The notes beneath the pieces were generated by a model. The model was not told the DNA's origin. It saw only the letters and a list, made by a program, of their open reading frames with translations, and did no database searches. Positions 14,029 through 37,263 of a stretch of DNA of 38,332 nucleotides are shown piece by piece (position 1 is the first letter of the stretch; every line of letters starts with the position of its first letter). The position numbers were made by a program, and so were the translations under genes. The DNA is from an uncultured Burkholderiales bacterium (GTDB lineage: Bacteria > Pseudomonadota > Gammaproteobacteria > Burkholderiales > Burkholderiaceae_C): assembly GCA_903961095.1 (NCBI GenBank), contig CAJCDH010000128.1:1-38332 (forward strand), given 5' to 3'.

Positions 14029-14076
14029 TTAATCTACTAAGAATGTCGCCTGTATCAATCATTAAAGGTGACTACT

Positions 14077-15762
14077 ATGAAAAACAACCAAGCTCGTCGT
14101 GACTTTCTTATTCGAGTGAGCTCCATCTCTGCAGCTCTCACAGCAGGCGGCATACTCAGTGCATGCGGGGGCAATGAGACCCTCATGGTGAACTTCGATT
14201 ATGGTGTCGCAAGTGGTGACCCCTTAAGTGACAAAGTCATTTTGTGGACGCATGCCAAATACCAAGACCTATCAGACGCTGTCGTCTTAACATGGCAAGT
14301 TGCTTCCGATATTGAGTTCTCTAAAATCGTATCGTCAGGATCCGCTCAAGCCAGCCCTGATTCGGGTTACACCTGCAAGGTAGATGCAACTGGCTTATCG
14401 CCCAATCAAACTTACTTCTACCGTTTTAAGGCTGGCCAACACACTTCGCCCATTGGTAAAACAAAAACTTTGCCAATAGGTTCCGTCAGTGAAGTGAAGC
14501 TTGCTGTTTTGTCGTGCTCAAACTATCCAGCTGGGTTCTTCAATGTGTACTCAGAAGTTGGTCGTTCCGATGTTGATGTTGCAGTTCATCTGGGTGATTA
14601 CATTTATGAATATGCTGCTACGGGCTATGCCTCTGATACCGCTGCTAGCTTGGGCCGTACCTCGGTACCAGCCAACGAAATTTTGACGCTCAGTGACTAT
14701 CGCATGCGTCATGCCCAATACAAATCTGATGCAGATTCAAAGCAGTTTCATGCAAACAAACCCATCATTGCCGTTTGGGATGATCATGAATTTACAAATG
14801 ACACATACAAAGATGGTGCCGAGAATCACACGCCAGCAACAGAAGGTAGTTTTTCAGTCCGCAAGGCAGCTGCAATTCAGGCATATCATGAGTGGATGCC
14901 TATCCGGTCTGGCTCAGACAAGGCCAAAATTTACAGAAGTTTTAACTTTGGAAACTTAATAAGCTTGCACATGCTTGACACACGTAGCATTGGTCGCGAT
15001 CTGCAAATTGAAATTACAGACTTGATCAATCCTGCCAAGCAAGCAGCAGCAGTGGCTGCTTTGTCCTCACCTACAAGACAACTTCTAGGTACTGAGCAAT
15101 TGCAATGGGTTCAAACACAAATGGCCACATCACAGGCCACTTGGCAGGTTTTGGGTCAACAAGTGCTAATGGCAAGAATGGAGTTTCCAGTCAGCATACT
15201 TCAGGCTCTGAATTCTTCTGATACCAGTCCTCAAGCGCTAGCTGCTGGAGAAAAAGCAATTTCAGATTACTTGACTGCAAAGACCAAAAAAGGACTAGGC
15301 ATGCAATTGTCGGATTCTGAAACAGCTTTGTTGAATCAAGCCAAATTGGGCTACAACTTGGATGCTTGGGATGGCTATCCTGCAGCCCGTGAAATTTTAT
15401 TGTCAACAGCAGCACAATTGAAAAAGCGCTTGGTCGTTTTGGCCGGTGACACTCACAATGCTTGGCACAGTAACTTGACGCTTATGTCTGGACAAAAAGT
15501 CGGTGAGGAATTTGCTACTTCCAGTGTCAGCTCACCGGGTTTAGAAGCATATTTGGCATTGCCACCTGCGCAAGTGAAAGCTATTTTTGAAGGTGTTGTC
15601 AACGACCTCAAATGGATGGATTCATCACGTCGTGGTTATTTGAAATTAAGCATCACGCCAGCTCAGGTTCAAGGTGAGTGGTTGTTCATTGACACCATTT
15701 CAAGCAGAACCTACAAGGTCGTTACGCCAACTGCAAATGAAAAGCGAATCTACAGTGCTTAA
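14077..15762 (+). CDS. phoD: PhoD-family alkaline phosphatase/phosphodiesterase, Tat-exported
   Basis: Twin-arginine leader 'QARRDFLIRVSSISAALTAGGILSACGG'; 'FDYGVASGDPLSDKVILWT', 'VHLGDYIYEYAA', 'IAVWDDHEFTNDTYKDGAENH', 'VVLAGDTHNAWHSNL'. Start moved 9 bp from the track GTG to ATG. Confidence 0.94.
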   Translation: MKNNQARRDFLIRVSSISAALTAGGILSACGGNETLMVNFDYGVASGDPLSDKVILWTHAKYQDLSDAVVLTWQVASDIEFSKIVSSGSAQASPDSGYTCKVDATGLSPNQTYFYRFKAGQHTSPIGKTKTLPIGSVSEVKLAVLSCSNYPAGFFNVYSEVGRSDVDVAVHLGDYIYEYAATGYASDTAASLGRTSVPANEILTLSDYRMRHAQYKSDADSKQFHANKPIIAVWDDHEFTNDTYKDGAENHTPATEGSFSVRKAAAIQAYHEWMPIRSGSDKAKIYRSFNFGNLISLHMLDTRSIGRDLQIEITDLINPAKQAAAVAALSSPTRQLLGTEQLQWVQTQMATSQATWQVLGQQVLMARMEFPVSILQALNSSDTSPQALAAGEKAISDYLTAKTKKGLGMQLSDSETALLNQAKLGYNLDAWDGYPAAREILLSTAAQLKKRLVVLAGDTHNAWHSNLTLMSGQKVGEEFATSSVSSPGLEAYLALPPAQVKAIFEGVVNDLKWMDSSRRGYLKLSITPAQVQGEWLFIDTISSRTYKVVTPTANEKRIYSA

Positions 15763-16616: not shown

Positions 16617-17810
16617 ATGGAAAACACAGTTGATTCTCCCATCGTGCTGGAAGATTATCCAGCAAGCCGTCCTTCCCTTCGAATTGCGGTTGTCACAGAA
16701 ACATGGCCACCTGAAGTCAATGGTGTTGCGGTTACTTTGGCCAAGCTGGTTCAAGGTTTGAGCCATCGCAATCATGATGTCCAATTGATACGGCCTCGTC
16801 AAACAAAAAATGATGGCAACTTGAACGATTCCAATCTTGAAGAAGTTTTGATGCGAGGCATGCCTATTCCGCGCTATCCAGAATTAAAACTAGGTTTACC
16901 CAGTAAAAAAACGCTGGTCAAAACTTGGACTTCGCGCCGTCCTGATGTGGTTCATATTGCAACCGAAGGGCCACTGGGCTGGTCTGCACTTCAAGCGGCA
17001 AAGGTACTAAAATTGCCTGTGACATCCGATTTTCGAACCAATTTTCAAAGCTATTCAAAGCATTACGGCGTGGGGTGGTTGCGCAAGCCAATTGTTGCCT
17101 ATTTGCGTAAATTTCACAACGCAACAGCATGTACCATGGTTCCCACTAAGGAGCTTCAAAGAACACTCATTGACAATGGTTTTATAAACCTCAAAGTGGT
17201 TTCCAGAGGTGTTGATACCAAGTTGTTCAATATGCTTAAACGCGACAATGGGCTTCGAAAATCTTGGGGTGCTAACGAGAATTCCAAAGTCATGATTTCA
17301 GTGGGCCGGATGGCGCCTGAAAAAAACTTAGAACAGGTTCTCAAATGCTTCGATGCTCTGCGTTTTATGGGAACGCAATTGAAGTTGGTCATGGTGGGGG
17401 ATGGCCCGCTGCGTGAACAATTCCAACTTCGATATCCAGACATCATTTTTCCTGGCATGTTGTCGCAAGCTGATTTGGCAGTTTATTACGCAAGCTCTGA
17501 TCTGTTTGTATTTCCAAGTCAAACAGAAACCTTCGGAAATGTCACTTTAGAAGCACTTGCCAGTGGAATTCCTGTTTTGGCTTTTGATTGTGCTGCAGCG
17601 CGTGACTGGGTCCAGCAGGGTGTCAATGGATGGTTGGTACCTGAGAATTATCCAACGGGCTTTGCTGAACAAGCCATGGCTATTTTCAAAACTCCTAACT
17701 TGTTAGAACAGGTCACTGCGAGTACCCGTCAGCAAGTGGTCCACCTAGATTGGGATCAAATTGCTGAGCAAGTTGAATCGGTTTTATGGGATGCCATTCG
17801 CATGAGGTAA
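16617..17810 (+). CDS. GT4 glycosyltransferase, likely lipid (diacylglycerol) glycosyltransferase of the Agt/SqdX/MgtA type
   Basis: 'IAVVTETWPPEVNGVAVTLAKLVQGLSHRNHDVQLIRPRQ', 'TSDFRTNFQSYSKHYGVGWL', 'VSRGVDTKLFN', 'SVGRMAPEKNLEQVLKCFD', 'FVFPSQTETFGNVTLEALASGIPVLAFDCAA'. Confidence 0.85.
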   Translation: MENTVDSPIVLEDYPASRPSLRIAVVTETWPPEVNGVAVTLAKLVQGLSHRNHDVQLIRPRQTKNDGNLNDSNLEEVLMRGMPIPRYPELKLGLPSKKTLVKTWTSRRPDVVHIATEGPLGWSALQAAKVLKLPVTSDFRTNFQSYSKHYGVGWLRKPIVAYLRKFHNATACTMVPTKELQRTLIDNGFINLKVVSRGVDTKLFNMLKRDNGLRKSWGANENSKVMISVGRMAPEKNLEQVLKCFDALRFMGTQLKLVMVGDGPLREQFQLRYPDIIFPGMLSQADLAVYYASSDLFVFPSQTETFGNVTLEALASGIPVLAFDCAAARDWVQQGVNGWLVPENYPTGFAEQAMAIFKTPNLLEQVTASTRQQVVHLDWDQIAEQVESVLWDAIRMR

Positions 17811-19033
17811 AGGATGCCTAGGGTCATGAAGATGCCCATCAATGTCATCACCCATTTCAGTGGAAACTCCAAGGCCAGGAGCCCACTGTAAACGCCTAAC
17901 ATGATCATGACACTGGCATTCTCATTGAAGCCTTGAACGGCAATAGAGCGGCCCGCTGTCAGCAACTTATAGCCTCTATTTTGCAAAAGTGCATTCATAG
18001 GGACCATCAACATGCCGCCAGCAAAGCCTGTTAAAAGCATCAATGGAATGGCAATCCAGAGTGATGTTGAAAATACCAAGGCAGGCAAAGAGATGCCTAA
18101 CCAGAGACCCAGTGGCAAAACCCTGTAAGCCTGGTGAAGCGCCACCATATGTCCAGCCATACCTGCACCAAAAATAACACCAAATGCAACTACCGCTTGT
18201 AGCAAGCTGGCTTGTTCTAATGGCATGTCAAGTGCTTCCTTGGCCCATAGCAATACCGCAAATTGCACAACTGCGCCTACACCCCAAAAAAGTGTGGTCA
18301 CAGCCAATGACAATTTACCGACGGCGTCTTTCCAAAGTATTCGGTTGCTTTGTAAAAAATTCTTAAAAAGTGCAATGGGCTTCATGCTTTGCTGCACATA
18401 TTTGATATCAACATGGGGAATGCCAAAGTTGAGCATGGCTGCTGCGATGTAGATCACAATCAAAGACAGAAGAGGACCCGCATATTGGGTTTGAATAGGC
18501 AGATTCAAATGCTGAATAAAACCCTGATTGAGCAATGCCATGTGCTCGAAGTTCTTAGAAGCAACAAGCAGTCCCCCGCAAGCCGTACCCAAAATGACCG
18601 ACATGACCACGGTGACTTCTAACCAACCGTTGGCTTTGACCAAATGCTCTGCAGGAACTGTCTCAGTCACTAGACCATATTTGGCGGGTGCGTAGGCAGA
18701 CGCAGCCATCCCCACAATGGCAAAAGCAAGCATGGGATGAAAACTGGTGAAGATAAACGCTACGCCTACTACTTTCAATGCATTCATACAAGCCATCAGT
18801 TTGGCTTTGGCGTAAGCATCGGCAAGCGGCCCCATCAGGGGTGCTAAAAATACATAAGAAAGTGTGAAAGAAAACTTGAGAAGAGGTGCCCACCATCCAG
18901 CATAGCCTTGCTCACTGAGAAAGGCGATTCCCAAAATTAGAAAAGCATTGTCAGCCAGACCTGATGCAAATTGAGCGCTGATCAGGTAGAAGAAACCCTT
19001 TGGCATATTTGACTTATGCCGATGCTTCCTCAA
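17756..19033 (-). CDS. lplT: LplT-like MFS lysophospholipid transporter
   Basis: 425 aa, 12 TM-like; 'FFYLISAQFASGLADNAFLILGIAFL', 'FLAPLMGPLADAYAKAKLMACMNALKVVG', 'YAPAKYGLVTETVPAEHLVKANGWLEVTVVMSVILGTACGGLL'. Confidence 0.85.
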   Translation of the reverse strand: MRKHRHKSNMPKGFFYLISAQFASGLADNAFLILGIAFLSEQGYAGWWAPLLKFSFTLSYVFLAPLMGPLADAYAKAKLMACMNALKVVGVAFIFTSFHPMLAFAIVGMAASAYAPAKYGLVTETVPAEHLVKANGWLEVTVVMSVILGTACGGLLVASKNFEHMALLNQGFIQHLNLPIQTQYAGPLLSLIVIYIAAAMLNFGIPHVDIKYVQQSMKPIALFKNFLQSNRILWKDAVGKLSLAVTTLFWGVGAVVQFAVLLWAKEALDMPLEQASLLQAVVAFGVIFGAGMAGHMVALHQAYRVLPLGLWLGISLPALVFSTSLWIAIPLMLLTGFAGGMLMVPMNALLQNRGYKLLTAGRSIAVQGFNENASVMIMLGVYSGLLALEFPLKWVMTLMGIFMTLGILYLMRMASHKTDSTCSAI

Positions 19034-20435
19034 CGTTTTGCTGAGTTCGGCCTGCCTTGAAATTCAAAGCCAACTGATTGCGCCTGCCAATACCTTGGTA
19101 GGCAATTCCCAAATCTTCAAGCAATTGAGGGTCATACAAATTGCGACCATCTAAAATGAAAGCTTGATTCATGCAAGCTTTAAGCGCTTCAAAATCGGGA
19201 TGATGGAATGTCTTCCATTCTGTGACGACCAAAAGCGCATCTGCATTGTTGGCAGCTTCGTAGGCTGAGTCGGCCATATGAAAACGGCTTAAATCAGCTT
19301 TGTTTGGGATGTCGTGGGCCACAGCTTCAGATCCTTCTTTAGAAACAAGAGGATCAAAAGCGCTAACTTGTGCGCCACGTCGAAGCAGTTCTTGAATGAT
19401 GACGCGGCTAGGAGCTTCTCGCATGTCATCTGTATTGGGCTTGAATGCCAAACCCCAAATTGCAAACTTGAGACCACTGAAATTGTCTCCAAAATGCTGA
19501 ATCAAACGTGAGACAAGTAAAGTTTTTTGCTGATCATTGACATTTTCAACGGCGGTGACAACCTTCATCTGACTGCCGCAATCTAAGGCCGTTTGAATCA
19601 GTGCGCGTGTGTCTTTTGGAAAACAGCTGCCACCATAGCCAGTACCCGCATACAAGAAGTCGTGCCCAATGCGTTGATCTGCTCCGATGCCCCTGCGAAT
19701 GCTGTCGATGTCTGCTCCCAGTAAATCGGACAGGTTGGCAATTTCATTCATGAAAGAAATTCGTGTTGCCAACATGGCATTGGCAGCATATTTTGTGAGC
19801 TCGGCACTTCGAACCCCCATCCAGATAGTGCGCGCATGGTGTCTGTTGAAGCTGGAGTAAAGAAGCTCCATTTTTTGGTGGACAGTCTTGTAATTAGGAC
19901 CTTCATCCAAACCAATCACAATACGGTCAGGGTGCATGAAGTCTTTAATTGCTGCACCTTCTTTCAAGAATTCTGGATTAGAGATAACTTCAAATAATGA
20001 GTCTGTAATGCCTCGTTTGTTCAATTCATCTTGCAGACATTTTTGAACGCGATAGGCGGTACCCACTGGCACCGTGGATTTATTCACAATGACTTTGAAT
20101 TTTTTCAAATGACGGCCTATTTGGCTGGCTACTGCCAAGACATGCTGCAAATCAGCAGAGCCATCTTCTTTAGACGGGGTGCCAACTGCAATAAATATGA
20201 CTTCACCATGTTCAACGGCCTGCGCCATGTCTGTGGTGAAGTGAATTCGACCTTCAGCCCTGTTCCGAGCCATGAGTTCTTGGAGACCAGGCTCATAAAT
20301 GGGTAAGCCAGCAGCGTTGAGTGTGGCCACTTTTTGGGTATCACTGTCAATGCAAATAACTTGGTGGCCTAGGTCTGCCAAACATCCGCCCGTAACCAAG
20401 CCTACGTAACCAGCGCCAACGATTGAAATTTTCAT
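19014..20435 (-). CDS. ugd: UDP-glucose 6-dehydrogenase
   Basis: 473 aa; 'MKISIVGAGYVGLVTGGCLADLGHQVICIDSD', 'NKSTVPVGTAYRV', 'SNPEFLKEGAAIKDFMHPDRIVIG', 'GTGYGGSCFPKDTRAL', 'WGLAFKPNTDDMREAPS'. Confidence 0.97.
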   Translation of the reverse strand: MKISIVGAGYVGLVTGGCLADLGHQVICIDSDTQKVATLNAAGLPIYEPGLQELMARNRAEGRIHFTTDMAQAVEHGEVIFIAVGTPSKEDGSADLQHVLAVASQIGRHLKKFKVIVNKSTVPVGTAYRVQKCLQDELNKRGITDSLFEVISNPEFLKEGAAIKDFMHPDRIVIGLDEGPNYKTVHQKMELLYSSFNRHHARTIWMGVRSAELTKYAANAMLATRISFMNEIANLSDLLGADIDSIRRGIGADQRIGHDFLYAGTGYGGSCFPKDTRALIQTALDCGSQMKVVTAVENVNDQQKTLLVSRLIQHFGDNFSGLKFAIWGLAFKPNTDDMREAPSRVIIQELLRRGAQVSAFDPLVSKEGSEAVAHDIPNKADLSRFHMADSAYEAANNADALLVVTEWKTFHHPDFEALKACMNQAFILDGRNLYDPQLLEDLGIAYQGIGRRNQLALNFKAGRTQQNVEEASA

Positions 20436-20484
20436 GGTGATCTCCTTGAATGAACTTATTTTGGAGATTGAAAATTTCTGTGTC

Positions 20485-20513
20485 GTGACTAATTCGTGTA
20501 TTTTTCGTGACGG
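20485..20513 (-). promoter_or_regulatory. Candidate three-unit Pho box for ugd-lplT
   Basis: Minus strand CCGTCAC-GAAA-AATACAC-GAAT-TAGTCAC: three related 7-mers at 11-bp period, ~50-80 bp upstream of ugd. Confidence 0.55.
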
Positions 20514-20543
20514 TTATGTGCTTTGAAAAATGTCATCAAGGGC

Positions 20544-21632
20544 CTATTTGCTAGGAATAAGTCTTCTCCAATGCAAATTGAATTCAGTGTGTAAGTACCA
20601 AATCAACACAATCAGCGTACTTGTGCCATGGACAATTAGCATCATGCCGCCAAAAGTTACGGTGCCATCTGCAATCAAGCGTTTACCAATGGTCAGCATG
20701 TTGTAGTAGCCTACAAAACACAGGAGGGCCATGCCCAATGAATAGCTTCTCCCAATCCGTGGATTGACGCTTGCAATTTGAACAGCTAGAAGAGCTAAGT
20801 TGATGGCGGCTATAAACAACCCAATTCTCCAGAAAAGTTCTCCTTGGTTGATGCGATCCTTGCTTTTAAAAAGCTCAGCTGTGCCCAGCATTTGGCTCTG
20901 CATGCCAGATAAAACTTGACGACTTGTGGGGTCTAACCAATACTTGAATTGATTAAATTCAGTCGACCGCACTTCACCAGTTTGGTGGTCTATGACTGTT
21001 TGTTGCCCTTGACTCAAAGCTAAAAACTTGTCTTTATTCAGCCACTCGATGCTGCCTGCTTTGGCCGTCGTAATGGTCTCGAGGTGAGCATCTATGTTTG
21101 AAATAAACACACTGCTGGCCTCGTCATCACTTTTCTGTTTCTTTTCAATGAAAAAGACCATTTGTTTAGATTTTGATTCTTGAAACTGACCTGGGCTGAC
21201 CCTTTCTATGTCGCTTCTCTTTTCAAAGTTATCTTTCAAATACTGCGTTTGTTCATTGCTCCAAGGCCAAGCAAAAAGTGCCAGTATTGCAATGGTCAAT
21301 ACGATGGGCCAAGAAAAATAGAAGAGCGGTTTTAGAAATTTGGTAAGACTTACGCCACTTGAAAACCAGATCACCATTTCACTGTCGAGGTACATTCGTG
21401 AAAATGTGTAGACCACCGATACAAACAAACTCAAGGTCAAAATGGGGCCTGCATTGCCAATACCATTGAGGCCGATCAGCAAGATCACCTCGGAGGGATC
21501 GACTTTGCCCTTTGACGCCTGGCCCAAAATTCGAATGAGCATGATGGTCATGACAATGGTAAATAGGATGACCGTTGCCCCCCCAAAATTCCGAAGCAAA
21601 TCTTTTTGAATACTTTTTTGAAATAGATTCAT
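20544..21632 (-). CDS. lptF: LptF-type LPS-export ABC permease, no adjacent lptG
   Basis: 362 aa; 'MTIMLIRILGQASKGKVDPSEVILLIGLNGIGNAGPILTLSLFVSVVYTFSRMYLDSEMVIWFSSGVSLTKFLKPLFYFSWPIV', 'WPWSNEQTQYLKDNFEKRSDIERVSPGQFQES'. Confidence 0.9.
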   Translation of the reverse strand: MNLFQKSIQKDLLRNFGGATVILFTIVMTIMLIRILGQASKGKVDPSEVILLIGLNGIGNAGPILTLSLFVSVVYTFSRMYLDSEMVIWFSSGVSLTKFLKPLFYFSWPIVLTIAILALFAWPWSNEQTQYLKDNFEKRSDIERVSPGQFQESKSKQMVFFIEKKQKSDDEASSVFISNIDAHLETITTAKAGSIEWLNKDKFLALSQGQQTVIDHQTGEVRSTEFNQFKYWLDPTSRQVLSGMQSQMLGTAELFKSKDRINQGELFWRIGLFIAAINLALLAVQIASVNPRIGRSYSLGMALLCFVGYYNMLTIGKRLIADGTVTFGGMMLIVHGTSTLIVLIWYLHTEFNLHWRRLIPSK

Positions 21633-21665
21633 CTCATCACTGATCCATTTGTGTCAACTTTGAGC

Positions 21666-22670
21666 TTACACCGGATTCCATTTTCCCAACCACTCAACCA
21701 TCTCAAGCAAGCCATCTTCAAGGCTTGTATGAGGCCAGTCACCAATCAGTTGTCTCAGTTTCTCTTCACTGGCGCAGGTAAGCGGCACGTCAGAAACTTG
21801 CATTGGCAATAACTCAATCACTGGTTCAAGCTTTAAAACCTTTGCCAGTGTTTGCACAAACTCAGTGACTTGAACAGGATTTGAATGCCCAACGTTCACC
21901 ACATCTGCATAAGTTTGATTGATGCCGCGCTCAATGAGACGGCCAATTGCGAATACGGTGTCACCTACAAACGTGAAATCGCGCTGCAATAAGCCGCTCC
22001 CAAACAATTGAATGGCTTGTTGTTTGCGCATTTTCTGGGCAAAGATAAATGGCGCCATGTCTAGCCGACCCCAAGGCCCGTAGACTGTGAAAAATCTCAG
22101 ACCCAATGAAGGTGTTTGGTATTGTGCGAAATATGCTTTGGCCATCTGCTCATTGGCGATCTTGGTGGCAGCGTAGAAAGATTCAGGCGTGTCACATCGA
22201 TCGGTCTCTTTAAATGGCGCCTCTGTTCTTGCGCCATACACGCTGGAGGAGCTGGCGTATAAGAATTGCTTAATGCCATGCGTGTTACAAGCGTCAAGGA
22301 CATTCGCAAACCCATTCAAATTCGATTTAACGAAGTCCATCGGTGATTTGACTGAGTGTCTGACTCCTGCTTGAGCCGCTAGGTGGACGACGACATCAGG
22401 TTCTATTTTTTGAAACAATTTGGAAACAGAAGCGTGATCAGAAATGTCTATCGATTGGTATTCAATGTCATTTCTCTTTAAAAAATGTGCAATTCGATCA
22501 GATCTGAGGCGCTGGAGAGCTAGGTGGTGTAAATCGCCCACATCGAAAAACTGATTTCTAAAGTTGAAAATATCACAAGCCACAACTTCGTAGCCAAGTT
22601 CGCTCAAGTGCTCGGCCAGCTTAGATCCAATAAATCCTGCAGCACCTGTGATCAGAACTTTTCTTGTCAT
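21666..22670 (-). CDS. NAD-dependent UDP-glucuronate 4-epimerase family protein (LpsL/Cap1J-like; product UDP-GalA)
   Basis: 334 aa SDR; 'VLITGAAGFIGSKLAEHL', 'VVHLAAQAGVRHSVKSPMDFVKSNLNGFANVLDAC', 'LYASSSSVYGARTEAPFKE', 'FYAATKIANEQMAKAY', 'GLRFFTVYGPWGRLDMAPFIF' match the GlcA 4-epimerase subfamily. Confidence 0.88.
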   Translation of the reverse strand: MTRKVLITGAAGFIGSKLAEHLSELGYEVVACDIFNFRNQFFDVGDLHHLALQRLRSDRIAHFLKRNDIEYQSIDISDHASVSKLFQKIEPDVVVHLAAQAGVRHSVKSPMDFVKSNLNGFANVLDACNTHGIKQFLYASSSSVYGARTEAPFKETDRCDTPESFYAATKIANEQMAKAYFAQYQTPSLGLRFFTVYGPWGRLDMAPFIFAQKMRKQQAIQLFGSGLLQRDFTFVGDTVFAIGRLIERGINQTYADVVNVGHSNPVQVTEFVQTLAKVLKLEPVIELLPMQVSDVPLTCASEEKLRQLIGDWPHTSLEDGLLEMVEWLGKWNPV

Positions 22671-22687
22671 TCAATCAATTTAGAAAA

Positions 22688-22727
22688 GTTTCATGACATT
22701 GTCATGAAACTTGGTTGAAATATTCAT
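22688..22727. promoter_or_regulatory. Bidirectional palindromic Pho box cluster
   Basis: GTTTCATGACA-T-TGTCATGAAAC is a perfect 23-bp inverted repeat (22688-22710). Plus strand has four units at 11-bp period: GTTTCAT-GACA-TTGTCAT-GAAA-CTTGGTT-GAAA-TATTCAT; minus strand has GTTTCAT-GACA-ATGTCAT. Confidence 0.75.
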
Positions 22728-22763
22728 GTAGCAAAAGGCCTTTGGCCTGATGCCGACTCATTT

Positions 22764-23576
22764 ATGAATACTTCTGTCACACACGACGCTTCTTCCAAAT
22801 TAATCCTACTTTCAGTTGGAATGCTTCTGTGCTTGAGTGTTTCTTTGAGTTTTTTACTCATTTCTTTTGAGCTCAATCAACTCTGGATGTTGAGCATTCA
22901 TGCCGCGCCCATACTGCCAACTTGGGTTTGGTCATTCATCAACATTGGCGGTGATGCATGGGTTGTTTTGCTCATTTTGCTGCTGGCTGAAAGGCGGCCT
23001 GGAGAAATAACTTCCTGGGTCCTTAAAACCTGGTTGACCGGTGCAGTGTTAGTTCAATTCTTCAAAATCTTCTTTCCCATGCCTAGACCTGCCAATGTCT
23101 TAGGCAAAGAGATGTTGTCATTGATTGACCACCCACCTATGTTCAGTGGGTCAATGCCTTCTGGGCACGCATTGGCTGCAGTTTCATGTGCACTCATTTT
23201 GTGCACGGTATTAAGACAAAGAGGCATTTCTCGTTCAATATTGTTGCTGATCTCGGTCTTTGCAGGTCTTGTTGCATGGGCCAGGGTGGCTGTGGGTGCA
23301 CATTGGCCGTCCGATGTCATTGCCGGCGTTGGATTGGCATTTTTTGTAGTCACTCTGACGCATTTTTGGGAGAGTAAGCACACCTGGAATCACTGGTTGA
23401 AGTCACAACATGGCACTTTGCTGCTTGCTTTGATTCACATTCTGATTGCACTGCATCTGCTTTCACCTCAATCCGACTTTTTCTTTGTCTACCTTTTTCA
23501 ATTGAGCTTGGCATGTCTTTCTTTGTTCAAGGCTATGTCACTCATCAAAGAATTTCTGAGGCTTAGAGCCTACTGA
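22764..23576 (+). CDS. PAP2-family membrane phosphatase
   Basis: 270 aa; KxxxxxxRP 'KIFFPMPRP', 'SGSMPSGHALAAVS', 'ARVAVGAHWPSDVIAGVGLAFF'. Confidence 0.9.
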   Translation: MNTSVTHDASSKLILLSVGMLLCLSVSLSFLLISFELNQLWMLSIHAAPILPTWVWSFINIGGDAWVVLLILLLAERRPGEITSWVLKTWLTGAVLVQFFKIFFPMPRPANVLGKEMLSLIDHPPMFSGSMPSGHALAAVSCALILCTVLRQRGISRSILLLISVFAGLVAWARVAVGAHWPSDVIAGVGLAFFVVTLTHFWESKHTWNHWLKSQHGTLLLALIHILIALHLLSPQSDFFFVYLFQLSLACLSLFKAMSLIKEFLRLRAY

Positions 23577-23587
23577 CCAGTCAAACG

Positions 23588-24544
23588 GTGATGCAACACT
23601 TAATCTCTGAAAACCATTTTGATTCACACATCCGCTTGAGGAAGTGGTTTTATCGAATTGCATTCTGGTTGCTTTCGATGGTTTTGCTCTTGGTTTTGGT
23701 TCGTCATTCCAACTGGGAGTTAACTTACACCCGCTTTCTAGATCTACCTGCATCTGTGAATTTCGTTTGCGTTTTAGGTTGGCTCTTGAGTTTTATTTTT
23801 CGAGCCCTTCGTTTTCGATTGGAATGGCAGTTCTTAGGCCCTGTCAATTTATGCCAAGCACTGCATGTCACCTTTCTTCACAATGCTGCCGTCGTTTTGG
23901 TCCCTTTCCGAGTAGGTGAGTTAGGGTATCCCGTCTTGGTTAGAAAATTATTTGATGTTTCTTGGCAAAAATGTATTCGAAGTTTGCTTTGGCTAAGATT
24001 TCAAGACGGCATTGTTCTCCTTGTCATCGCTTTTTTAATTTTGCCATTCTTCAGCCCTGAAGTCAGATTGCTGGTCTTGCTCTTGTGCGTTGCGCTGATG
24101 ATGTTGACCCAAAAGCATTGGTTTCGACTTTTGCGGTCAAGGCATTTCCTCATGCGTCAATTAAGAGCATTTCTCCATCAGCGGTCTAATGCCTGGGGCT
24201 GGTTTTGGTCTGCTGCCAACTGGATTTGCAAAATAAGCGTTGTTGCCATCATGCTCCAAAGTCTGACAGGGCTGCCTATCCTTCAAACTCTCAACGGTGC
24301 CTTGACTGGAGAGCTTTCAGCCATGCTACCCATCACGGGGCCAGCTGGTTTAGGAACCTACGAGGCTGCGGTGTGGTCGGGCCTTGGATTGCCTTGGACC
24401 GATATGAGAAATCTCATGGCCTGCGTCTTGTTTTCTCATTTATTTTTCCTTTTTATTTCCTTGTTAGGTGCTTTTATTTCCTTGTTACTTCATGGTTTAT
24501 GGTCGAACTCGATAAGTTCAAAAAGAGACAATGCGCATGTCTGA
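23588..24544 (+). CDS. Flippase-like integral membrane protein (LPG-synthase TM domain / UPF0104, AglD/YbhN/HpnL type)
   Basis: 318 aa; 'ALRFRLEWQFLGPVNLCQALHVTFLHNAAVVLVPFRVGELGYPVLVRKLFDVSW', 'GALTGELSAMLPITGPAGLGTYEAAVWSGLGLP'. Confidence 0.82.
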   Translation: MMQHLISENHFDSHIRLRKWFYRIAFWLLSMVLLLVLVRHSNWELTYTRFLDLPASVNFVCVLGWLLSFIFRALRFRLEWQFLGPVNLCQALHVTFLHNAAVVLVPFRVGELGYPVLVRKLFDVSWQKCIRSLLWLRFQDGIVLLVIAFLILPFFSPEVRLLVLLLCVALMMLTQKHWFRLLRSRHFLMRQLRAFLHQRSNAWGWFWSAANWICKISVVAIMLQSLTGLPILQTLNGALTGELSAMLPITGPAGLGTYEAAVWSGLGLPWTDMRNLMACVLFSHLFFLFISLLGAFISLLLHGLWSNSISSKRDNAHV

Positions 24545-25565
24545 TATGTCGACTGTGAAGGATGCATCAAAGGGTGCTGTGGCACACACACTTTCTGTGG
24601 TGGTGCCCATGTTCAATGAGGAAGAACTGGCAGTTGATTTGATTCAAGCGGTTCACAACGCATTGTCAAACTATGCTTTTCCTTGGGAATTGATCGTCGT
24701 CGATGATGGCAGTAGTGATGCAACTTGGGATCAACTCAGCATGGGTGCTAAGCATGTAGGGCCACATGTTCGCTTGATTCGGCTTCTCCGAAATTTTAAG
24801 CAGACTGCAGCCATGCAGGCTGGTATTGATGCGGCAAGAGGCGATGTGATTGTCACCATGGATGGAGATCTGCAAAACGATCCGCGTGATATTCCCTCAT
24901 TGGTTCACAAGTTATTGTCTGAAGACCTCGACATGGTGGCCGGCTGGCGTCAGAAGCGACAAGATGGCTTTTGGCTTCGCAAAGTACCTTCCAAAATTGC
25001 CAATCGCTTAATTCGAAATGTGAGTGGGCTTCATTTTCAAGATTTGGGTTGTAGCTTGAAGGCTTTCAGGGCATCTGTGCTTCGTCAAGTTCGCCTGTAT
25101 GGTGAGATGCACCGATTCATTCCTGCATGGCTTGCGACTGTGACTTCGCCCCAACGCATGGCAGAGGTGCCTGTCGCACATTTCCCTAGAACCAAAGGAC
25201 AGTCTAAATATGGCTTGTCTAGAACCTTTAGGGTCTTGCTTGATTTGCTTTCAATTCATTATTTTTTGCGATTTGGCTCGCGACCAGGTCACTTCTTTGG
25301 GGGCCTTGGCAGCATCGTGACGGGCATTGGACTTCTCATACTCACCTACTTGGGTATTTTGAAGTTTTTGGGCGAGTCTATTGGCAATCGACCCTTGATG
25401 TTCTTGGGATTTTTTGCGGTCGTGAGCGGTCTTCAACTGCTTACCACTGGCGTGATTGCAGAGATTTTGATGCGCACTTATTACGACGCTGGTAAGTTCA
25501 ATTCTTATCACACCTTGCATACTTCCAATCTGAATATGAATGAGGGATGGCATGCTGCCAACTGA
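24531..25565 (+). CDS. GT2 polyprenyl-phosphate glycosyltransferase (ArnC/GtrB/RgtE-like)
   Basis: 344 aa; 'SVVVPMFNEEELAVDLIQAV', 'LIVVDDGSSDATWDQL', 'TMDGDLQNDPRDIPSLV', 'AGWRQKRQDGFWLRKVPSKIANRLI', two C-terminal TM segments. Confidence 0.9.
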   Translation: MRMSDMSTVKDASKGAVAHTLSVVVPMFNEEELAVDLIQAVHNALSNYAFPWELIVVDDGSSDATWDQLSMGAKHVGPHVRLIRLLRNFKQTAAMQAGIDAARGDVIVTMDGDLQNDPRDIPSLVHKLLSEDLDMVAGWRQKRQDGFWLRKVPSKIANRLIRNVSGLHFQDLGCSLKAFRASVLRQVRLYGEMHRFIPAWLATVTSPQRMAEVPVAHFPRTKGQSKYGLSRTFRVLLDLLSIHYFLRFGSRPGHFFGGLGSIVTGIGLLILTYLGILKFLGESIGNRPLMFLGFFAVVSGLQLLTTGVIAEILMRTYYDAGKFNSYHTLHTSNLNMNEGWHAAN

Positions 25566-27150
25566 TTCAATTCACCCTCACCGCATGGCGTGGCTAATTG
25601 GCGCTATTGCTTTGTTGGGTTTGTTTCTTCTTGGTTTAGATCAGTCGCTTTTTTTTGATGTCGACGAAGGCGCATTCACAGAGGCAAGCCGAGAAATGTT
25701 GATCTCCCAAGATTGGGGTCACACCACCTTGAATGGTATCGATCGTTTCGACAAACCCATCGGTGTTTATTGGTTTCAAGTTATCAGTGTTTCAATTTTT
25801 GGATTGAATGAGTTTGCATTCCGTTTGCCCTCTGCCTTGTCTGGCTGGCTTGCAAGTTTGGCCTTGGCTTGGTTCTCTCAAAAAGAGTGGGGTCGTCGAG
25901 CTGCGGTCATCACAGCCATCATTTCTGCAACCAGTTTAGGGCCATGGGCCATGGCCAGAACAGCCACTGCCGATGCACTTCTGGGGCTATTTTTTGTTTT
26001 GATCTTTTTAGATCTTTGGCGCTCGCTCCACAATCAAGAAGTTTGGGCAGGGCGACGCGTTGCACTTTGGGTGGGCTTGGGATTTTTGGTGAAAGGGCCA
26101 GTTGCATTGGTTCTACCGCTGGGTACGCTCTTGGTTTATGGGCTTGTGGCGCCTTCTTACCGCACCCAAATTCGACTTCTTATAAGCGACTTCAGGTCTT
26201 GGCTCATCTTTGCTTTTGTTGCTTTGCCTTGGTACATCTATGCATATTTAAGACATGGGAAGCTATTTATTGAAGGCTTCTTGCTCAAGCACAACGTTGA
26301 ACGTTTTATGGGAAGCATGGAGGGTCACTCTGGGCACTGGGCTTATTTTCTAATTGCGTTGCCTTTGCTTTGGCTACCTTGGTCAGCTTTGTGGTTTAGA
26401 GCACTTGGAAATTTTAGATCGCACTGGCAAAACCCGTTTTTAAAATACTGTTGGATTTGGTTTCTGTTTGTATTTTGTTTTTTTACGCTAGCCAACACCA
26501 AGCTACCTCACTATTTGTTGTATGCAGGTCCTGCAATGTGTTTAATCATTGCCTACACTTCTTTGCATGCAACTCGTTTAACCTGGATACTGACTTGGCT
26601 GATTGCCATATTGGGCCTGACTATTTTGATCATGGCCCCCGCTTATTTGCAGGCGAATTCCCAATGGGTGACTGATCCCTTTTACAAAGCTTTGCTGGAA
26701 GGCTCCCCCAAAACACAAATGACGGTATGGCTTTTTGCCATACCCCTGATCATTTATGTGGCGCATGCATTTGTCACGTTGCTTCGAATGACCAAGATAG
26801 CGAATTTAAAAGTCACGCCAAGCTTTTCCTTCCTTTTGCTCGCACTTTACCAATCCATTGTGTTGTCGATGGTCACGCTGCCTTGGTGGTCGCGCACCTT
26901 GCAATCTGATGTGCACGCATTGGCGATGAAATTCAAAGGTGACACTCGCACAGTGGTTCAGTGGGGCGTTCACTTACCTTCGTTTGCCAGCTATCGTCAT
27001 CAAGAGGCAGCAAGACGCGAGCCGAAGCCAGGTGAATTGGCCTTGGTCAAAAATGTAAAGCCCTTTTGGCCCTCTGATTGGGAAATTTTGGCAAGCAGCG
27101 GACCTCTAGCAATCGTTAAGTCGCCAGAAATTGGGGGGCCTAAGCCATGA
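25540..27150 (+). CDS. GT39/ArnT-like membrane glycosyltransferase
   Basis: 536 aa; 'DVDEGAFTEASREMLISQDWGHTTLNGIDRFDKPIGVYWFQVISVSIFGLNEFAFRLPSALSGW' ArnT/PMT signature and many TM segments. Confidence 0.9.
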   Translation: MRDGMLPTDSIHPHRMAWLIGAIALLGLFLLGLDQSLFFDVDEGAFTEASREMLISQDWGHTTLNGIDRFDKPIGVYWFQVISVSIFGLNEFAFRLPSALSGWLASLALAWFSQKEWGRRAAVITAIISATSLGPWAMARTATADALLGLFFVLIFLDLWRSLHNQEVWAGRRVALWVGLGFLVKGPVALVLPLGTLLVYGLVAPSYRTQIRLLISDFRSWLIFAFVALPWYIYAYLRHGKLFIEGFLLKHNVERFMGSMEGHSGHWAYFLIALPLLWLPWSALWFRALGNFRSHWQNPFLKYCWIWFLFVFCFFTLANTKLPHYLLYAGPAMCLIIAYTSLHATRLTWILTWLIAILGLTILIMAPAYLQANSQWVTDPFYKALLEGSPKTQMTVWLFAIPLIIYVAHAFVTLLRMTKIANLKVTPSFSFLLLALYQSIVLSMVTLPWWSRTLQSDVHALAMKFKGDTRTVVQWGVHLPSFASYRHQEAARREPKPGELALVKNVKPFWPSDWEILASSGPLAIVKSPEIGGPKP

Positions 27151-27878
27151 AAAGTCGGATCCTAAAAAAATGGCACTGCGCACCCGGTTGCCTCGTGCTG
27201 TTTGCCGTTGCAGCTATTTTGTTCAGCCTCTATCCACAAGCAGATTTGGAATTTTCAAACTTATTTTATGCGGGCCATGGCTATTTCCCAGCCAATGATT
27301 GGTGGATTGTGAAAGCGGTCTACCATGGAACGCCATGGCTTGGCCGCTTATTTTTCTTCATAGCCATAGCTGCTAGCTTGTTGGCCATCGTCAAGCCTAC
27401 AATGATTTCAAGGCGACACTGGCGTAGAGCTGCTGCTGTATTTTCAATTGTGATACTGGGCATTGGTTTGGTGGTTCATGTATTCTTAAAAGACGGTATG
27501 GGACGTCCTCGGCCGCGTGATGTTCAAATTTTTGCGGGCAGCACTGCTTATGTGCCCGTCTTCTCACCAAGTGAGTTTTGTCAAAAAAACTGTTCTTTCG
27601 TCAGTGGGCACGCAGCTGTAGGATTTGCTTTGATGTCTGTTGGTTTGTTGGGTATCCGCAGGCGGCGTCAGTTTTGGTTTTTAGTGGGTCTCACAGCCGG
27701 TGGACTGATTGGCTTGGTTCGAATCATGCAAGGTGGACATTTTTTAAGTGATGTTGTTTTTTCCTTGGTTTCAATTTGGGCGTGTCATTTGTTTGTGCGC
27801 TTCACCTGGATCAGGTTCAGGGCTTGGCAGCTTCAAAGAGCCCTTGTTCTTGTGAGTCAGAACCCTTCTTCCGTTTAG
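27147..27878 (+). CDS. PAP2-family phosphatase, LpxE/LpxF-like
   Basis: 243 aa; 'LKDGMGRPRPRDVQIFAGSTAYVPVFSPSEFCQKNCSFVSGHAAVGFA', 'RIMQGGHFLSDVVFS'. The 'C..NCSFVSG' segment recalls lipid A phosphatases. Confidence 0.85.
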   Translation: MKSRILKKWHCAPGCLVLFAVAAILFSLYPQADLEFSNLFYAGHGYFPANDWWIVKAVYHGTPWLGRLFFFIAIAASLLAIVKPTMISRRHWRRAAAVFSIVILGIGLVVHVFLKDGMGRPRPRDVQIFAGSTAYVPVFSPSEFCQKNCSFVSGHAAVGFALMSVGLLGIRRRRQFWFLVGLTAGGLIGLVRIMQGGHFLSDVVFSLVSIWACHLFVRFTWIRFRAWQLQRALVLVSQNPSSV

Positions 27879-27968: not shown

Positions 27969-30095
27969 TTGAGACTCAATTTTTCAAATGGATGCCAGCA
28001 AGTGAATTCTTCTAACCAACACCCCCTTGGCAAAATAAGCCCAGACATCGAGTTGCTCGATCGCGATGGCAGCATCTTGGCGTTCAATGAGCGGGTCTTG
28101 GATTGGGCTAAAAGGCCAGAAGTGCCACTGCTAGAAAGACTCAGATATTTGTGCATCGTATCTTCTAATTTAGATGAGTTTTTTGAGGTTCGTGCTGACC
28201 TGCACATGTCAGCCTTTAGAAATCAAGACACCAAAGGCAGTTACAACACCCTTACTTTTGAGAAGATCTATGAAGCAGCGAGGAGCTTGGTGACCGAGCA
28301 ATACAAGCTGTACAACGATGTTTTGTTACCTAGTTTAGAGAAACAAAAAATACACATTCTTTCCCATGCGCAACGCAATATTGCCCAAAAGAAATGGGTT
28401 CAAGAATACTTTAGGCGTGAGGTTAAGCCGCTTCTGGTTCCTGTTGGCTTAGACCCTGCACACCCCTTTCCTCAAGTTGCCAACAAATCTTTGAACTTCA
28501 TTGTGCAATTGTCGGGCAAGGATGCATTTGGTCGTTCTAATGACATTGCCATTGTCAAAGTGCCTCGTGTGTTACCCAGGGTGATTCCATTGCCAAGCAA
28601 GGTGGCTGGCAGTGGTAAGGCATTTGTGCTGCTCTCGAGTGTCATTCGGGCACACTTGAATGATCTGTTCCCGGGACGCGACGTGGGGCAGTTCTCGCAG
28701 TTTAGAGTCACGCGAAATTCCGACTTATCGGTTGACGAAGAGGAAGTTAAAAATTTGCGAACTGCGCTTCGCAAGGGGCTTCAGCATCGACAATATGGTG
28801 AAGCATTGCGCCTAGAAGTTTCTGACAGTTGTTCAGATCACTTATCAGATTTTCTGCTTAAGCAATTTAGTTTGCCAACAACGGCCCTCTTTCGGGCTGC
28901 AGGGCCCGTCAATTTGGTCCGCCTGACACAACTCATTGATTTGGTAGCAGACCCAGCTTTGTTGTTTCCACCTTACCAGCCGAGCTTTCCCAAAAAGCTC
29001 ACTCAAGGAGGGTCAATTTTTGCACGCATGCAGCAAGGTGATGTTTTGATTCATCAGCCTTTTGAAAGCTTTGATGGTGTGTTGGCCTTCTTGAAAGAAG
29101 CTGTCGAAGATCCCAATGTCTTGGCCATTAAGCAAACCATTTACCGAACCGGTAGTGATCCCGCCATGATGAATTTGTTGCGCGAGGCTGTGAGGCGAGG
29201 CAAAGAAGTGACGGCGGTTGTTGAACTCAAAGCGCGCTTTGATGAAGAGGCCAACATCAACTGGGCAGAGCAGTTGGAGTCGGTTGGGGCGCAGGTGGTT
29301 TATGGCGTGGTGGGCCTGAAAACACACGCCAAAATGCTACTGGTTACACGGCGCGAGGGGCGTGTGCTTAAGCGCTACGGACACTTGTCTACTGGAAACT
29401 ACAACCCCCGTACCGCCAAGCTGTACACAGACTTAAGCTACCTGACTTGCGATGCGCGCATGACTGCAGACATGGACACTTTGTTTGTTCATCTGGCCAG
29501 TCCCAGTAGGCTGGGGCGCATGAACAAGTTGTGGGCTGCACCTTTTTTATTGCAAAAGAAAATGGTTGAGAAGATTGCATCCGTTGGGGCTGCTGCTGAA
29601 AAAGGACTGCCAGCCCGAATCGTTGCAAAAATGAACTCCCTCACCGATCCTGTTCTGATTCATGCCCTGATATTGGCTGGACAAAAGGGGGCACAAATTG
29701 ATTTGATTGTTCGAGGTGCATGCATGTTGCCTGCTGGGTTGCCAGGCAAGACTGACAATATCAGAGTGCGATCTATCATTGGTAGATTCTTAGAACACTC
29801 GCGTGTATTTTTCTTTGAAGCAGGTGAAGACCAAGACATTTATTTGTCGAGTGCAGACTGGATGTCACGAAACATGACACGGCGCATAGAACTCGCATGG
29901 CCTGTTTTGGATTTGGATCTGCGCCAAAGAATTGTGGATGAATGTTTATTGGCCTATTTACACGATACGCGCAATGCTTGGACCTTGGGAGTTGACGGAA
30001 AGTATGCGCGCGTTGATAAAAAAGGGCAGAAAAAACAAAGTGCACAGGCATTGCTCATGCAAAAATATTCGCCTAGCAACGTCAAAGCGCAGTAG
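27969..30095 (+). CDS. ppk: Polyphosphate kinase 1 (alternative GTG start near 28003 possible)
   Basis: 'LDEFFEVRADLHMSAFRNQ', 'LLVPVGLDPAHPFPQVANKSLNF', 'AIKQTIYRTGSDPAMMNLLREAVRRGKEVTAVVELKARFDEEANINWAEQLESVGAQVVYGVVGLKTHAKMLLVTRREG', 'HLSTGNYNPRTAKLYTDLSYLT'. Confidence 0.97.
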   Translation: MRLNFSNGCQQVNSSNQHPLGKISPDIELLDRDGSILAFNERVLDWAKRPEVPLLERLRYLCIVSSNLDEFFEVRADLHMSAFRNQDTKGSYNTLTFEKIYEAARSLVTEQYKLYNDVLLPSLEKQKIHILSHAQRNIAQKKWVQEYFRREVKPLLVPVGLDPAHPFPQVANKSLNFIVQLSGKDAFGRSNDIAIVKVPRVLPRVIPLPSKVAGSGKAFVLLSSVIRAHLNDLFPGRDVGQFSQFRVTRNSDLSVDEEEVKNLRTALRKGLQHRQYGEALRLEVSDSCSDHLSDFLLKQFSLPTTALFRAAGPVNLVRLTQLIDLVADPALLFPPYQPSFPKKLTQGGSIFARMQQGDVLIHQPFESFDGVLAFLKEAVEDPNVLAIKQTIYRTGSDPAMMNLLREAVRRGKEVTAVVELKARFDEEANINWAEQLESVGAQVVYGVVGLKTHAKMLLVTRREGRVLKRYGHLSTGNYNPRTAKLYTDLSYLTCDARMTADMDTLFVHLASPSRLGRMNKLWAAPFLLQKKMVEKIASVGAAAEKGLPARIVAKMNSLTDPVLIHALILAGQKGAQIDLIVRGACMLPAGLPGKTDNIRVRSIIGRFLEHSRVFFFEAGEDQDIYLSSADWMSRNMTRRIELAWPVLDLDLRQRIVDECLLAYLHDTRNAWTLGVDGKYARVDKKGQKKQSAQALLMQKYSPSNVKAQ

Positions 30096-30121
30096 TTGCC
30101 ATTCAATCAACAACCGACATC

Positions 30122-30583
30122 ATGGACCTCATCTTTTGGCGACACGCTGAAGCATTTGAAGCTTTAGAGGGGCAGGATGATTTGTCGCGAACCTTGACAC
30201 CCAAGGGCGAGAAGCAAGCCTTGCGAATGAGCCAGTGGCTTGACCGTCAATTGCCTGAAGGTGTGCGTGTCATTTCCAGCCCTGCTGTTCGCTGTGAGCA
30301 AACAGTCAAACACTTAGGCCGAAAAGTGAAATACAAATCTGAGCTATTACCAGGTGGCAGCTTAGATGATTTGTTGGTCACAGCCGGTTGGCCAGACTCC
30401 AAAATGTCGGTGTTGATAGCGGGCCATCAGCCTGTATTGGGACAAGCCATTGCCTACCTGCTTGGGCTCCCTGGGGGCGATTGCTCAGTGCGCAAGGGCT
30501 CCCTTTGGTGGTTGAGAAGTCGGGTGCGAGACGGAGCAACACAAACTGTGTTGGTGAGCGTTCAAACACCCGAACTGCTCTGA
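30122..30583 (+). CDS. sixA: Phosphohistidine phosphatase SixA
   Basis: 'MDLIFWRHAEAFE...DLSRTLTPKGEKQALRMSQWLDRQLPEGVRVISSPAVRCEQTV', 'IAGHQPVLGQAIAYLLG'. Confidence 0.9.
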   Translation: MDLIFWRHAEAFEALEGQDDLSRTLTPKGEKQALRMSQWLDRQLPEGVRVISSPAVRCEQTVKHLGRKVKYKSELLPGGSLDDLLVTAGWPDSKMSVLIAGHQPVLGQAIAYLLGLPGGDCSVRKGSLWWLRSRVRDGATQTVLVSVQTPELL

Positions 30584-31129
30584 CTAAGACTTGGCGGGTC
30601 TGCCTGTTTTCAAGGCTGGCACCTTGGCCAATGCAGCCAAAAAAGCTTTGTCGTTCAAAGCATTTAAAAGCATGAGGCCGGCGCGCAATATTTCGCTTTT
30701 CTTGGCACTGTGCTTGAGGCCTAAAGCCTTTTGTTTTAACCCCGCAATGGCTTGGTACTCATCTTTCGGAAAAGTAAAGCTGTCGCGAACCAATTTGGGT
30801 TTTTTCAATTTCAGATCACCAGCGGCTTGCTCCACAGGCTTGGCTTTTGGTTTGGCAGCAGGCTTTGAGGCAGGCTTTGAGGCAGGCTTGGCCGCGCTCT
30901 TGGGTGCTGATTGGGTAACTGCTTTTTGAACTGGCTTTTTGGCAGCAGGCTTGGTTGGGCTATTCTTTTTGGCTGCTGGAGAGTTGCCGGTAGCTTTTTT
31001 GGCAGCTTTGCGGACTGGTTTTTTAGCGGGTGCAGCAGGCAGTTTGGCCGGTGCTGGCACCGCGGCACTGTTGGCTGTGGCATTGTTGGTAGGTGCAGCA
31101 ACCGTAGAGGTTTCAGTTGACATGGTCAA
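30584..31129 (-). CDS. Lys/Ala/Pro-rich histone H1-like (AlgP/PhaF-like tail) protein with folded C-terminal domain
   Basis: KPAA/KPAS/AKKP repeats followed by 'LVRDSFTFPKDEYQAIAGLKQKALGLKHSAKKSEILRAGLMLLNAL'. Likely start MSTETS two codons in. Confidence 0.8.
   Translation of the reverse strand: MTMSTETSTVAAPTNNATANSAAVPAPAKLPAAPAKKPVRKAAKKATGNSPAAKKNSPTKPAAKKPVQKAVTQSAPKSAAKPASKPASKPAAKPKAKPVEQAAGDLKLKKPKLVRDSFTFPKDEYQAIAGLKQKALGLKHSAKKSEILRAGLMLLNALNDKAFLAALAKVPALKTGRPAKS
30857..30892. repeat. 12-bp tandem repeat (~3 copies of GGCAGGCTTTGA) in the KPAS repeat region
   Basis: agcaggctttga / ggcaggctttga / ggcaggcttggc. Confidence 0.85.
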
Positions 31130-31158
31130 TAAAGGAGTGGGTTGAACATGAAAATAGT

Positions 31159-32676: not shown

Positions 32677-32707
32677 TTAGTTATTTTGTAAGTACTGATC
32701 GCCAATG

Positions 32708-32736
32708 GTCACTATTTTGTGACTTTTTTATGTCAA
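32708..32736 (-). promoter_or_regulatory. Candidate three-unit Pho box for ppx (TTGACAT-AAAA-AAGTCAC-AAAA-TAGTGAC on minus strand)
   Basis: 11-bp periodic units with A4 spacers, ~35-60 bp upstream of ppx start. Confidence 0.55.
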
Positions 32737-32817
32737 TTTAATGAAGTTTAAAAAAATAAATGTGGCAGCCTCAGGGTCAGATGGTTCTAGCCTGGGTGTC
32801 AATGTTTGAATTTGAAA

Positions 32818-34167: not shown

Positions 34168-34179
34168 TCAGTTTCAGGC

Positions 34180-35570: not shown

Positions 35571-35583
35571 GTTGTGCTCCTGA

Positions 35584-36357
35584 TTAGCCGAAACGGCCAG
35601 TGATGTAATCTTCAGTTTCTTGACGCGAAGGCTTCAAGAAAATTTGCTCAGTGACGCCAAATTCCATCAATTCGCCAAGGTACATGTAAGCTGTGAAGTC
35701 TGAGACCCTCGCGGCTTGTTGCATATTGTGAGTCACGATAGCCACTGTATATTCTTTTTTCAGCTCACTCACCAATTCTTCCACTTTGGCTGTCGAGATA
35801 GGGTCTAGCGCTGAGGTGGGTTCATCAAGAAGAATAACTTTGGGTTTGACTGCTACTGTGCGTGCTATGCAAAGACGCTGTTGTTGTCCACCCGATAGGG
35901 ACAATCCACTTTGCCCCAATTTGTCTTTTACTTCGTTCCAAATGGCGGCCTTGGTCAAGGCTGACTCAACGCGATCGTCCATATCTGAACGGCTGAGGTT
36001 TTCGTACAAACGAACACCAAAAGCAATGTTGTCATAGATAGACATTGGGAAAGGGGTTGGTTTTTGAAACACCATGCCAATTTGTGCACGGAGTAAGTTC
36101 AAGTCTTGCCCTTTGTTGAGAATATTTTGACCGTAGAAGTTGATTTCGCCTTCTGCGCGTTGCCCTGGATAAAGGCTGTACATGCGATTGAGTGTGCGGA
36201 GCAAAGTTGATTTGCCGCAGCCCGACGGTCCAATGAAGGCAGTGACTCGATGCTCAGCGATATCGAGGTTGACATTTTTCAGTCCTTTAAATTTGCCGTA
36301 GTAAAAGTCGAGATTGCGCACTTCGATGGCGTTTTGTGTTGGCTTATTTTCAGGCAT
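35584..36357 (-). CDS. pstB: Phosphate ABC transporter ATP-binding protein PstB
   Basis: '[32 protein letters not shown]', '[38 protein letters not shown]', '[27 protein letters not shown]'. Confidence 0.98.
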
Positions 36358-36401
36358 ATGGTTTCCTGTGAATTCAAAAAAATGTCTATTGAGGGGGTAA
36401 A

Positions 36402-37262: not shown

Positions 37263-37263
37263 T

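Follow-up and report, generated by a model that had tools for sequence, protein, structure and literature searches.

A candidate lipid A remodelling cassette linked to phosphate-starvation genes in an uncultured Burkholderiales bacterium

Contig C128 of an uncultured Burkholderiales bacterium, analysed over its entire length of 38,332 bases (the window), carries a divergent gene cassette, gae facing PAP2a-flip-GT2-GT39-PAP2b, beside genes of the phosphate (Pho) system. The reading favored here, with moderate confidence, is that this cassette remodels lipid A during inorganic phosphate (Pi) starvation, by removal of phosphates and an RgtF-type addition of galacturonic acid (GalA). The source assembly (3.03 Mb in 350 contigs) is 90% complete; the closest named relative is Limnohabitans sp. 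MMS-10A-178 (GT39 identity 76%). An original prediction, made from the sequence of the window alone, had proposed that a locus at 19014-27878 exchanges lipid A phosphates for GalA under Pi starvation. Every gene it named is a complete open reading frame where it had been placed, with a family assignment backed by Pfam and NCBIfam, and the overlaps it described are present (flip/GT2 14 bp, GT2/GT39 26 bp, GT39/PAP2b 4 bp, ugd/lplT 20 bp). Its limits were too narrow: the neighborhood reaches phoD, GT4, and lplT on the left and ppk-sixA-ppx-phoR-phoB-phoU-pstBAC on the right. The exchange itself is consistent with the co-inheritance, the gene families, the conserved promoter, and the linkage to Pho genes, while replacement at both lipid A positions is unsupported, since the genome has one PMT_2/GT39 gene alone.

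The cassette genes are inherited together. In comparisons with other genomes (G-numbers) and loci in them (L-numbers), GT39 (E<=1e-60) and PAP2b (E<=1e-50) were found in the identical 24 of 90 genus genomes, with a distant PAP2b alone in one more (Fisher p about 2e-22, a descriptive value that ignores phylogeny). Nearly every locus that is long enough also has gae, PAP2a, flip, and GT2, the sole omission being flip, not detected in G319. The usual order is gae on one strand and PAP2a-flip-GT2-GT39-(second GT39)-PAP2b on the other; in G321, G330, and G341 gae follows PAP2b. The synteny comparison that the original prediction had suggested finds the cassette kept in these genus genomes, and the same gene set recurs in other Burkholderiaceae genera (G284, G206, G216, G209, and G098). 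As in the Rgt/Lpx systems for GalA-modified lipid A, a GT2, a GT-C transferase, and an LpxE-type PAP2 protein are encoded together. Among the loci opened from a phylum-wide sample, GT39 relatives pair with GT2, and the full cassette with gae was not found beyond the family. A reduced locus occurs in G287 (L109, 8122-18099), where gae and PAP2b adjoin lplT-GT4-g15838-hemL-psd in a genome where GT39 was not matched at E<=1e-60; it is possibly a dephosphorylation-only variant.

Both phosphatase genes encode proteins resembling lipid A phosphatases, so that the original prediction was right in counting two PAP2 genes but not in calling just one of them LpxE/LpxF-like. PAP2a (22764..23576, + strand) is a candidate LpxE-like 1-phosphatase: in a single-sequence search its sole structural match was Aquifex LpxE (PDB 6EBU, E=1.5e-8), and in a profile search LpxE (7e-11) ranked ahead of YodM and PgpB. 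The motifs KX6RP, PSGH, and (S)RX5HX3D are kept, with K101, R108, P109, P132-H135, R174, H180, and D184 invariant in orthologues and the residue before R174 either A or S. PAP2b (27147..27878, +) is a candidate LpxF-like 4'-phosphatase, its top NCBIfam model being LpxF (NF045633, E=1.2e-30), and its catalytic residues are likewise invariant in orthologues (K115, R122, P123, S153-H155, R192, H198, and D202). AlphaFold2 models of PAP2a and PAP2b are of low confidence (predicted local distance difference test scores 41 and 46, respectively).

Between PAP2a and PAP2b are the genes for a putative lipid-linked sugar pathway. The flip product (23588..24544, +) is an LPG_synthase_TM membrane protein (PF03706, 8e-13) that may be a polyprenyl-phosphate-sugar flippase; the gene keeps its place between PAP2a and GT2 across loci. 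GT2 (24531..25565, +) is a polyprenyl-phosphate glycosyltransferase of the ArnC/RgtE type according to Pfam and NCBIfam, and GT39 (25540..27150, +) is a GT39/PMT_2 (GT-C) lipid-linked sugar transferase, a candidate RgtF-like enzyme (PMT_2, 3e-14; PDB 5EZM, 4e-25). Their closest curated models are ArnC and ArnT, respectively; GT2 has 32-33% identity to ArnC and GT39 26-29% to ArnT, and the "ArnT-like" label of the original prediction holds in that GT39 is related to ArnT. A phylogeny of GT39 had also been proposed there; in the part of it concerning ArnT, GT39 falls outside the ArnT group (support 93/98), and GT2 is similarly outside the ArnC group. Plasmid tblastn matches, to distant ArnT/GT39 and PAP2 sequences alone, were used as ArnT references. 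GT39 lacks the Arnt_C domain found in the betaproteobacterial ArnT-group sequences examined, a soft criterion because Pantoea ArnT lacks it too. No arnA-, arnB-, or arnD-type gene was found in the cassette (compare the Pantoea and Variovorax clusters), and on these grounds together an Arn pathway, for 4-amino-4-deoxy-arabinose (Ara4N), was rejected. In the relative G037, an Arn-type cluster adjoins a GT2-GT39-PAP2 set related to that of the window (L044:12931-19224 and beyond), so that two envelope pathways can be compared directly there.

A second PMT_2/GT39 gene was not found in the 90%-complete genome of the window, nor was a PF02366 match. G007 and G284 (and, judging by spacing, G206 and others) do have a second GT39, located between the first and PAP2b (L040:15874-17430, L091:5245-6792). 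This is a PMT_2 protein for which BLAST shows no useful resemblance to the first GT39; it adjoins the LpxF-like PAP2b, and is a candidate 4'-position transferase.

The sugar is predicted to be GalA, supplied as its uridine diphosphate (UDP) derivative. The gae product (21666..22670, -) is a short-chain dehydrogenase/reductase enzyme resembling UDP-glucuronate (UDP-GlcA) 4-epimerases, with phmmer matches to PDB entries 5U4Q (1.8e-69), MoeE5 6KV9 (4e-34), and 6ZL6 (2.7e-33) and a match to the Pfam Epimerase family (5e-57); no NCBIfam equivalog was matched at its cut-off. By homology it would provide the UDP-GalA supply of an Rgt/Lpx system, and it adjoins GT39/PAP2a/PAP2b in every genus locus where the contig extends to it. 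The UDP-glucose 6-dehydrogenase gene ugd (19014..20435, -; Pfam, NCBIfam) is present as predicted, but is not tied exclusively to the cassette: it accompanies lplT-GT4 in the cassette-less relatives G008 and G014 as part of a Pho glycolipid module, ugd-lplT-GT4, and so also serves the neighboring glycolipid branch.

Linkage of the cassette to Pho genes takes at least three forms: that of the window, ugd-[cassette]-ppk; that of G297 and G323, cassette-psd-hemL-GT4-lplT-ugd-phoR, seen also in G303 across the part fetched; and that of G329, phoD-cassette-lptF2-GT4. Matches to the Pho box CTGTCATNNNNCTGTCAT with <=3 mismatches number 10 in the window, vs. 4.05 +/- 1.74 in shuffled sequence, and none of 100 shuffles reached 10. 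Six of the 10 are in three divergent intergenic regions, those of phoD, GT4, and gae/PAP2a. The 93-bp gae/PAP2a gap has a 27-bp perfect palindrome (22686..22712), made of a 13-nt inverted repeat with a 1-nt spacer and containing overlapping PhoB-type boxes on both strands, their half-sites having the 11-bp spacing of PhoB boxes; it is a candidate shared divergent promoter element. The sequence TTTCATGACAyTGTCATGAAACTTGGTTGAAATA is nearly invariant in orthologues with diverged flanks, including the differently arranged G329. With a matrix trained on sites outside the window alone (the MMS-10A-178 pstS/phoX intergenic region and ppk orthologues), the two gae/PAP2a sites rank 6th and 7th among all window positions on both strands. 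Upstream of PAP2a in G321, G330, and G341, an element that is similar though not the same, with an 11-bp period, can be read by eye. Together these features would fit control of the cassette by PhoB. The original prediction had described divergent Pho-boxed operons; the gae/PAP2a gap has PhoB-like boxes, and the ugd/lptF2 gap has no Pho box (best match, 6 mismatches).

A further gene, lptF2 (20544..21632, -), encodes an additional LptF. The original prediction identified the family correctly (TIGR04407, 321 bits against a curated cut-off of 230); what it had listed is an extra paralogue, the ordinary pair being elsewhere. The genome has three LptF/LptG-type genes, the canonical lptF-lptG, adjacent on contig C34, and lptF2, which is full-length, shares 52% identity with the genome's canonical LptF, and has no lptG partner. 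It is present in 10 genomes, all of them cassette-bearing (in G307 the contig ends within GT2, and GT39 is thus missing from the assembly), a restriction that suggests a lipopolysaccharide (LPS) link and is in keeping with lipid A remodelling. MMS-10A-178 and most other carriers of the cassette lack lptF2, making it accessory. At three loci, ugd and lptF2 are separated by two inserted genes, one alkaline phosphatase-like and one for a small secreted protein (L009:2298-4970, L010:2379-4966, and L038:12249-14837).

As proposed, PhoB would switch on both operons through the shared box. Ugd would make UDP-GlcA, gae would epimerize it to UDP-GalA, and GT2, as an enzyme of the RgtE/ArnC type, would place GalA on polyprenyl phosphate, to be flipped by the LPG_synthase_TM protein. 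On the periplasmic side, PAP2a would take off the lipid A 1-phosphate and PAP2b the 4'-phosphate, freeing Pi for the Pst system, and GT39 would move GalA to a freed position, so that negative charge is kept. By analogy with RgtF this is probably a single position, C-1; the 4' position is predicted to be left bare in the organism of the window, because its genome has no second transferase. In one lineage, LptF2 may adjust the export of LPS to this change in lipid A. The proposal in its fullest form, a PhoB-run salvage of lipid A phosphate and GalA swap in which one lineage has re-tooled its LPS exporter with a dedicated second LptF, is a tentative one, possible but doubtful as a whole.

Several points weigh against remodelling of lipid A. 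Acceptor, sugar, and phosphate response in these bacteria are all deduced from sequence. Two phosphatases to one transferase are an imperfect fit to "replacement." PAP2b reaches 107 bits, vs. an LpxF equivalog cut-off of 400 bits, and is called LpxF-like instead of LpxF because LpxF is the best model yet the score is below that cut-off. In G055 and G207, GT39 and PAP2a are not accompanied by gae or PAP2b at the locus, so that a different sugar or function is possible for the core. Caution on PAP2a is called for mainly because LpxE enzymes also dephosphorylate undecaprenyl pyrophosphate (C55-PP; PMC6581854), so that lipid A need not be its substrate. It is conceivable, if unlikely, that GalA or GlcA goes to another acceptor (3-deoxy-D-manno-oct-2-ulosonic acid or the inner core, as with RgtA-C, or a glycolipid or protein), with the PAP2 proteins recycling C55-PP or dephosphorylating phospholipids for Pi. 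The matches of PAP2a to YodM and PgpB, the adjoining phospholipid-replacement module (GT4, lplT), and the genera with PAP2a and GT39 but no gae would all suit this. However, LpxE is the best structural match of PAP2a and LpxF the best NCBIfam model of PAP2b, the cassette has a linked LptF paralogue, and a polyprenyl-phosphate-sugar donor leaves no diphosphate carrier requiring a dedicated C55-PP phosphatase.

Regulation is the other point of doubt. The gae/PAP2a box has 3 mismatches to the E. coli PhoB consensus, and another regulator is possible, since direct repeats are the usual binding sites of PhoB and this element is perfectly palindromic. The fetched stretches of G319, G338, G321, and G341 hold no Pho gene, so Pho linkage is not universal. 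GalA-lipid A might then be made without any saving of phosphate, constitutively or in response to other envelope stress (cationic peptides, grazers, or phage), with the Pho siting incidental or the palindrome bound by a different regulator; GalA-lipid A in Caulobacter and Oligotropha is reported without mention of Pi starvation (PMC7663294). Against this, which seems quite unlikely, are the recurrence of Pho linkage in three arrangements, the persistence of box-like elements, and the high rank given to the gae/PAP2a site by a matrix from known-type Pho promoters. An Arn-type pathway adding Ara4N to lipid A phosphates is highly improbable: besides having ArnC and ArnT as nearest curated models it would account for ugd, but not for transferases outside the Arn groups and a missing Arnt_C, the lack of arnA/arnB/arnD-type genes in the cassette and of a second PMT gene in the genome, or the presence of a UDP-GlcA 4-epimerase and of phosphatases that would remove the attachment point of ArnT.

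The chemistry of GalA-modified lipid A is already known from Rhizobium, Mesorhizobium, Oligotropha, Caulobacter, and Aquifex. In Mesorhizobium loti and Oligotropha, rgtE, rgtF, and lpxE are clustered, for lipid A alpha-(1,1)-GalA, while rgtD and lpxF serve the 4' position (PMC5644692, PMC7663294). Likened by gene set, the window would have the same reactions (a polyprenyl-phosphate-GalA synthase, a GT-C transferase, and LpxE and LpxF phosphatases), but its genes, including the epimerase, flippase-like, and LpxF-like genes, form one divergent cassette in a betaproteobacterial Pho locus, with one transferase to two phosphatases and an extra LptF. A link of the rhizobial Rgt system to Pho control was not found in the open-licence literature. 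In Aquifex, Caulobacter, and Oligotropha the end product is the one proposed here, GalA for phosphate on the lipid A backbone, but at both positions, where the window has one transferase gene (PMC7663294, PMC6581854); neither source reports Pi-starvation control. The ArnBCADTEF operon shares the layout of nucleotide-sugar enzyme, GT2, flippase, and GT-C transferase, while the window has an epimerase and phosphatases and lacks ArnA/B/D and Arnt_C. In Agrobacterium, Agt makes MGDG and a glucuronosyl lipid (cited in PMC5193443); such Pho-controlled glycolipid replacement shares the Pi-starvation setting and the use of Ugd and UDP-uronate, and GT4 adjoins the cassette, but its target is diacylglycerol, replacing phospholipids, and that proposed for the cassette is lipid A. 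Compared with the LptF of the LPS exporter, lptF2 is full-length and above the curated cut-off, but is a cassette-linked second copy without an lptG partner. A Pho-LPS link of another kind is known in E. coli, where lipid A 1-pyrophosphate is reduced in pst mutants (reviewed in PMC12351708). A limited search of the open-licence literature found no paper linking lpxE, lpxF, or rgt genes to Pi starvation. On that basis, what is apparently unreported is the regulatory and taxonomic setting of the chemistry: linkage to Pho genes in Betaproteobacteria, together with an accessory LptF.

To the right of the cassette is a Pho block (27969..38253) of ppk, sixA, ppx, phoR, phoB, phoU, pstB, pstA, and pstC, the first three named by hidden Markov models and phoR-phoB-phoU-pstBAC by sequence and conserved order, without a family-library run. 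To its left are lplT (17756..19033, -; NF008397, 440 bits, cut-off 297), the lysophospholipid transporter of the adjoining Pho lipid module; GT4 (16617..17810, +), a candidate Agt-like glycolipid glycosyltransferase with Pho boxes upstream; and a phoD-type alkaline phosphatase gene (14068..15762, +; PF09423, 8.7e-108) with an upstream Pho box. Divergent from GT4, over a two-box Pho promoter, is g15838 (15838-16500, -), for a small protein with a weak Mpo1-like match (E=0.001, under the cut-off); it adjoins GT4 in nearly all relatives, and is a candidate partner in Pho lipid remodelling. Beyond phoD are psd, a hemL-like gene, and a 5'-nucleotidase gene. The psd gene and the hemL-like one, for a pyridoxal phosphate enzyme of 549 aa whose profile match begins near residue 127 (together 9943-12530), adjoin g15838-GT4 throughout the genus and in G287. 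Genes for an ExbB-like protein, a TonB-dependent receptor, TonB, ExbD (these four named from sequence alone), and the 5'-nucleotidase form a single run (3990-9946) that looks like one for organophosphate (nucleotide) acquisition.

Bacteria starved for phosphate are known to swap phospholipids for sugar lipids. Lipid A, an abundant surface lipid whose molecules each bear two phosphates, is not usually described as a phosphate reserve that responds to starvation. Because fresh waters poor in phosphate commonly harbor Limnohabitans, a lipid A swap linked to Pho genes would bear on the phosphorus economy there, and also on phage and antibiotic sensitivity in such waters. With the lptF2 paralogue, it can be tested whether the export of LPS needs to adapt to dephosphorylated lipid A.

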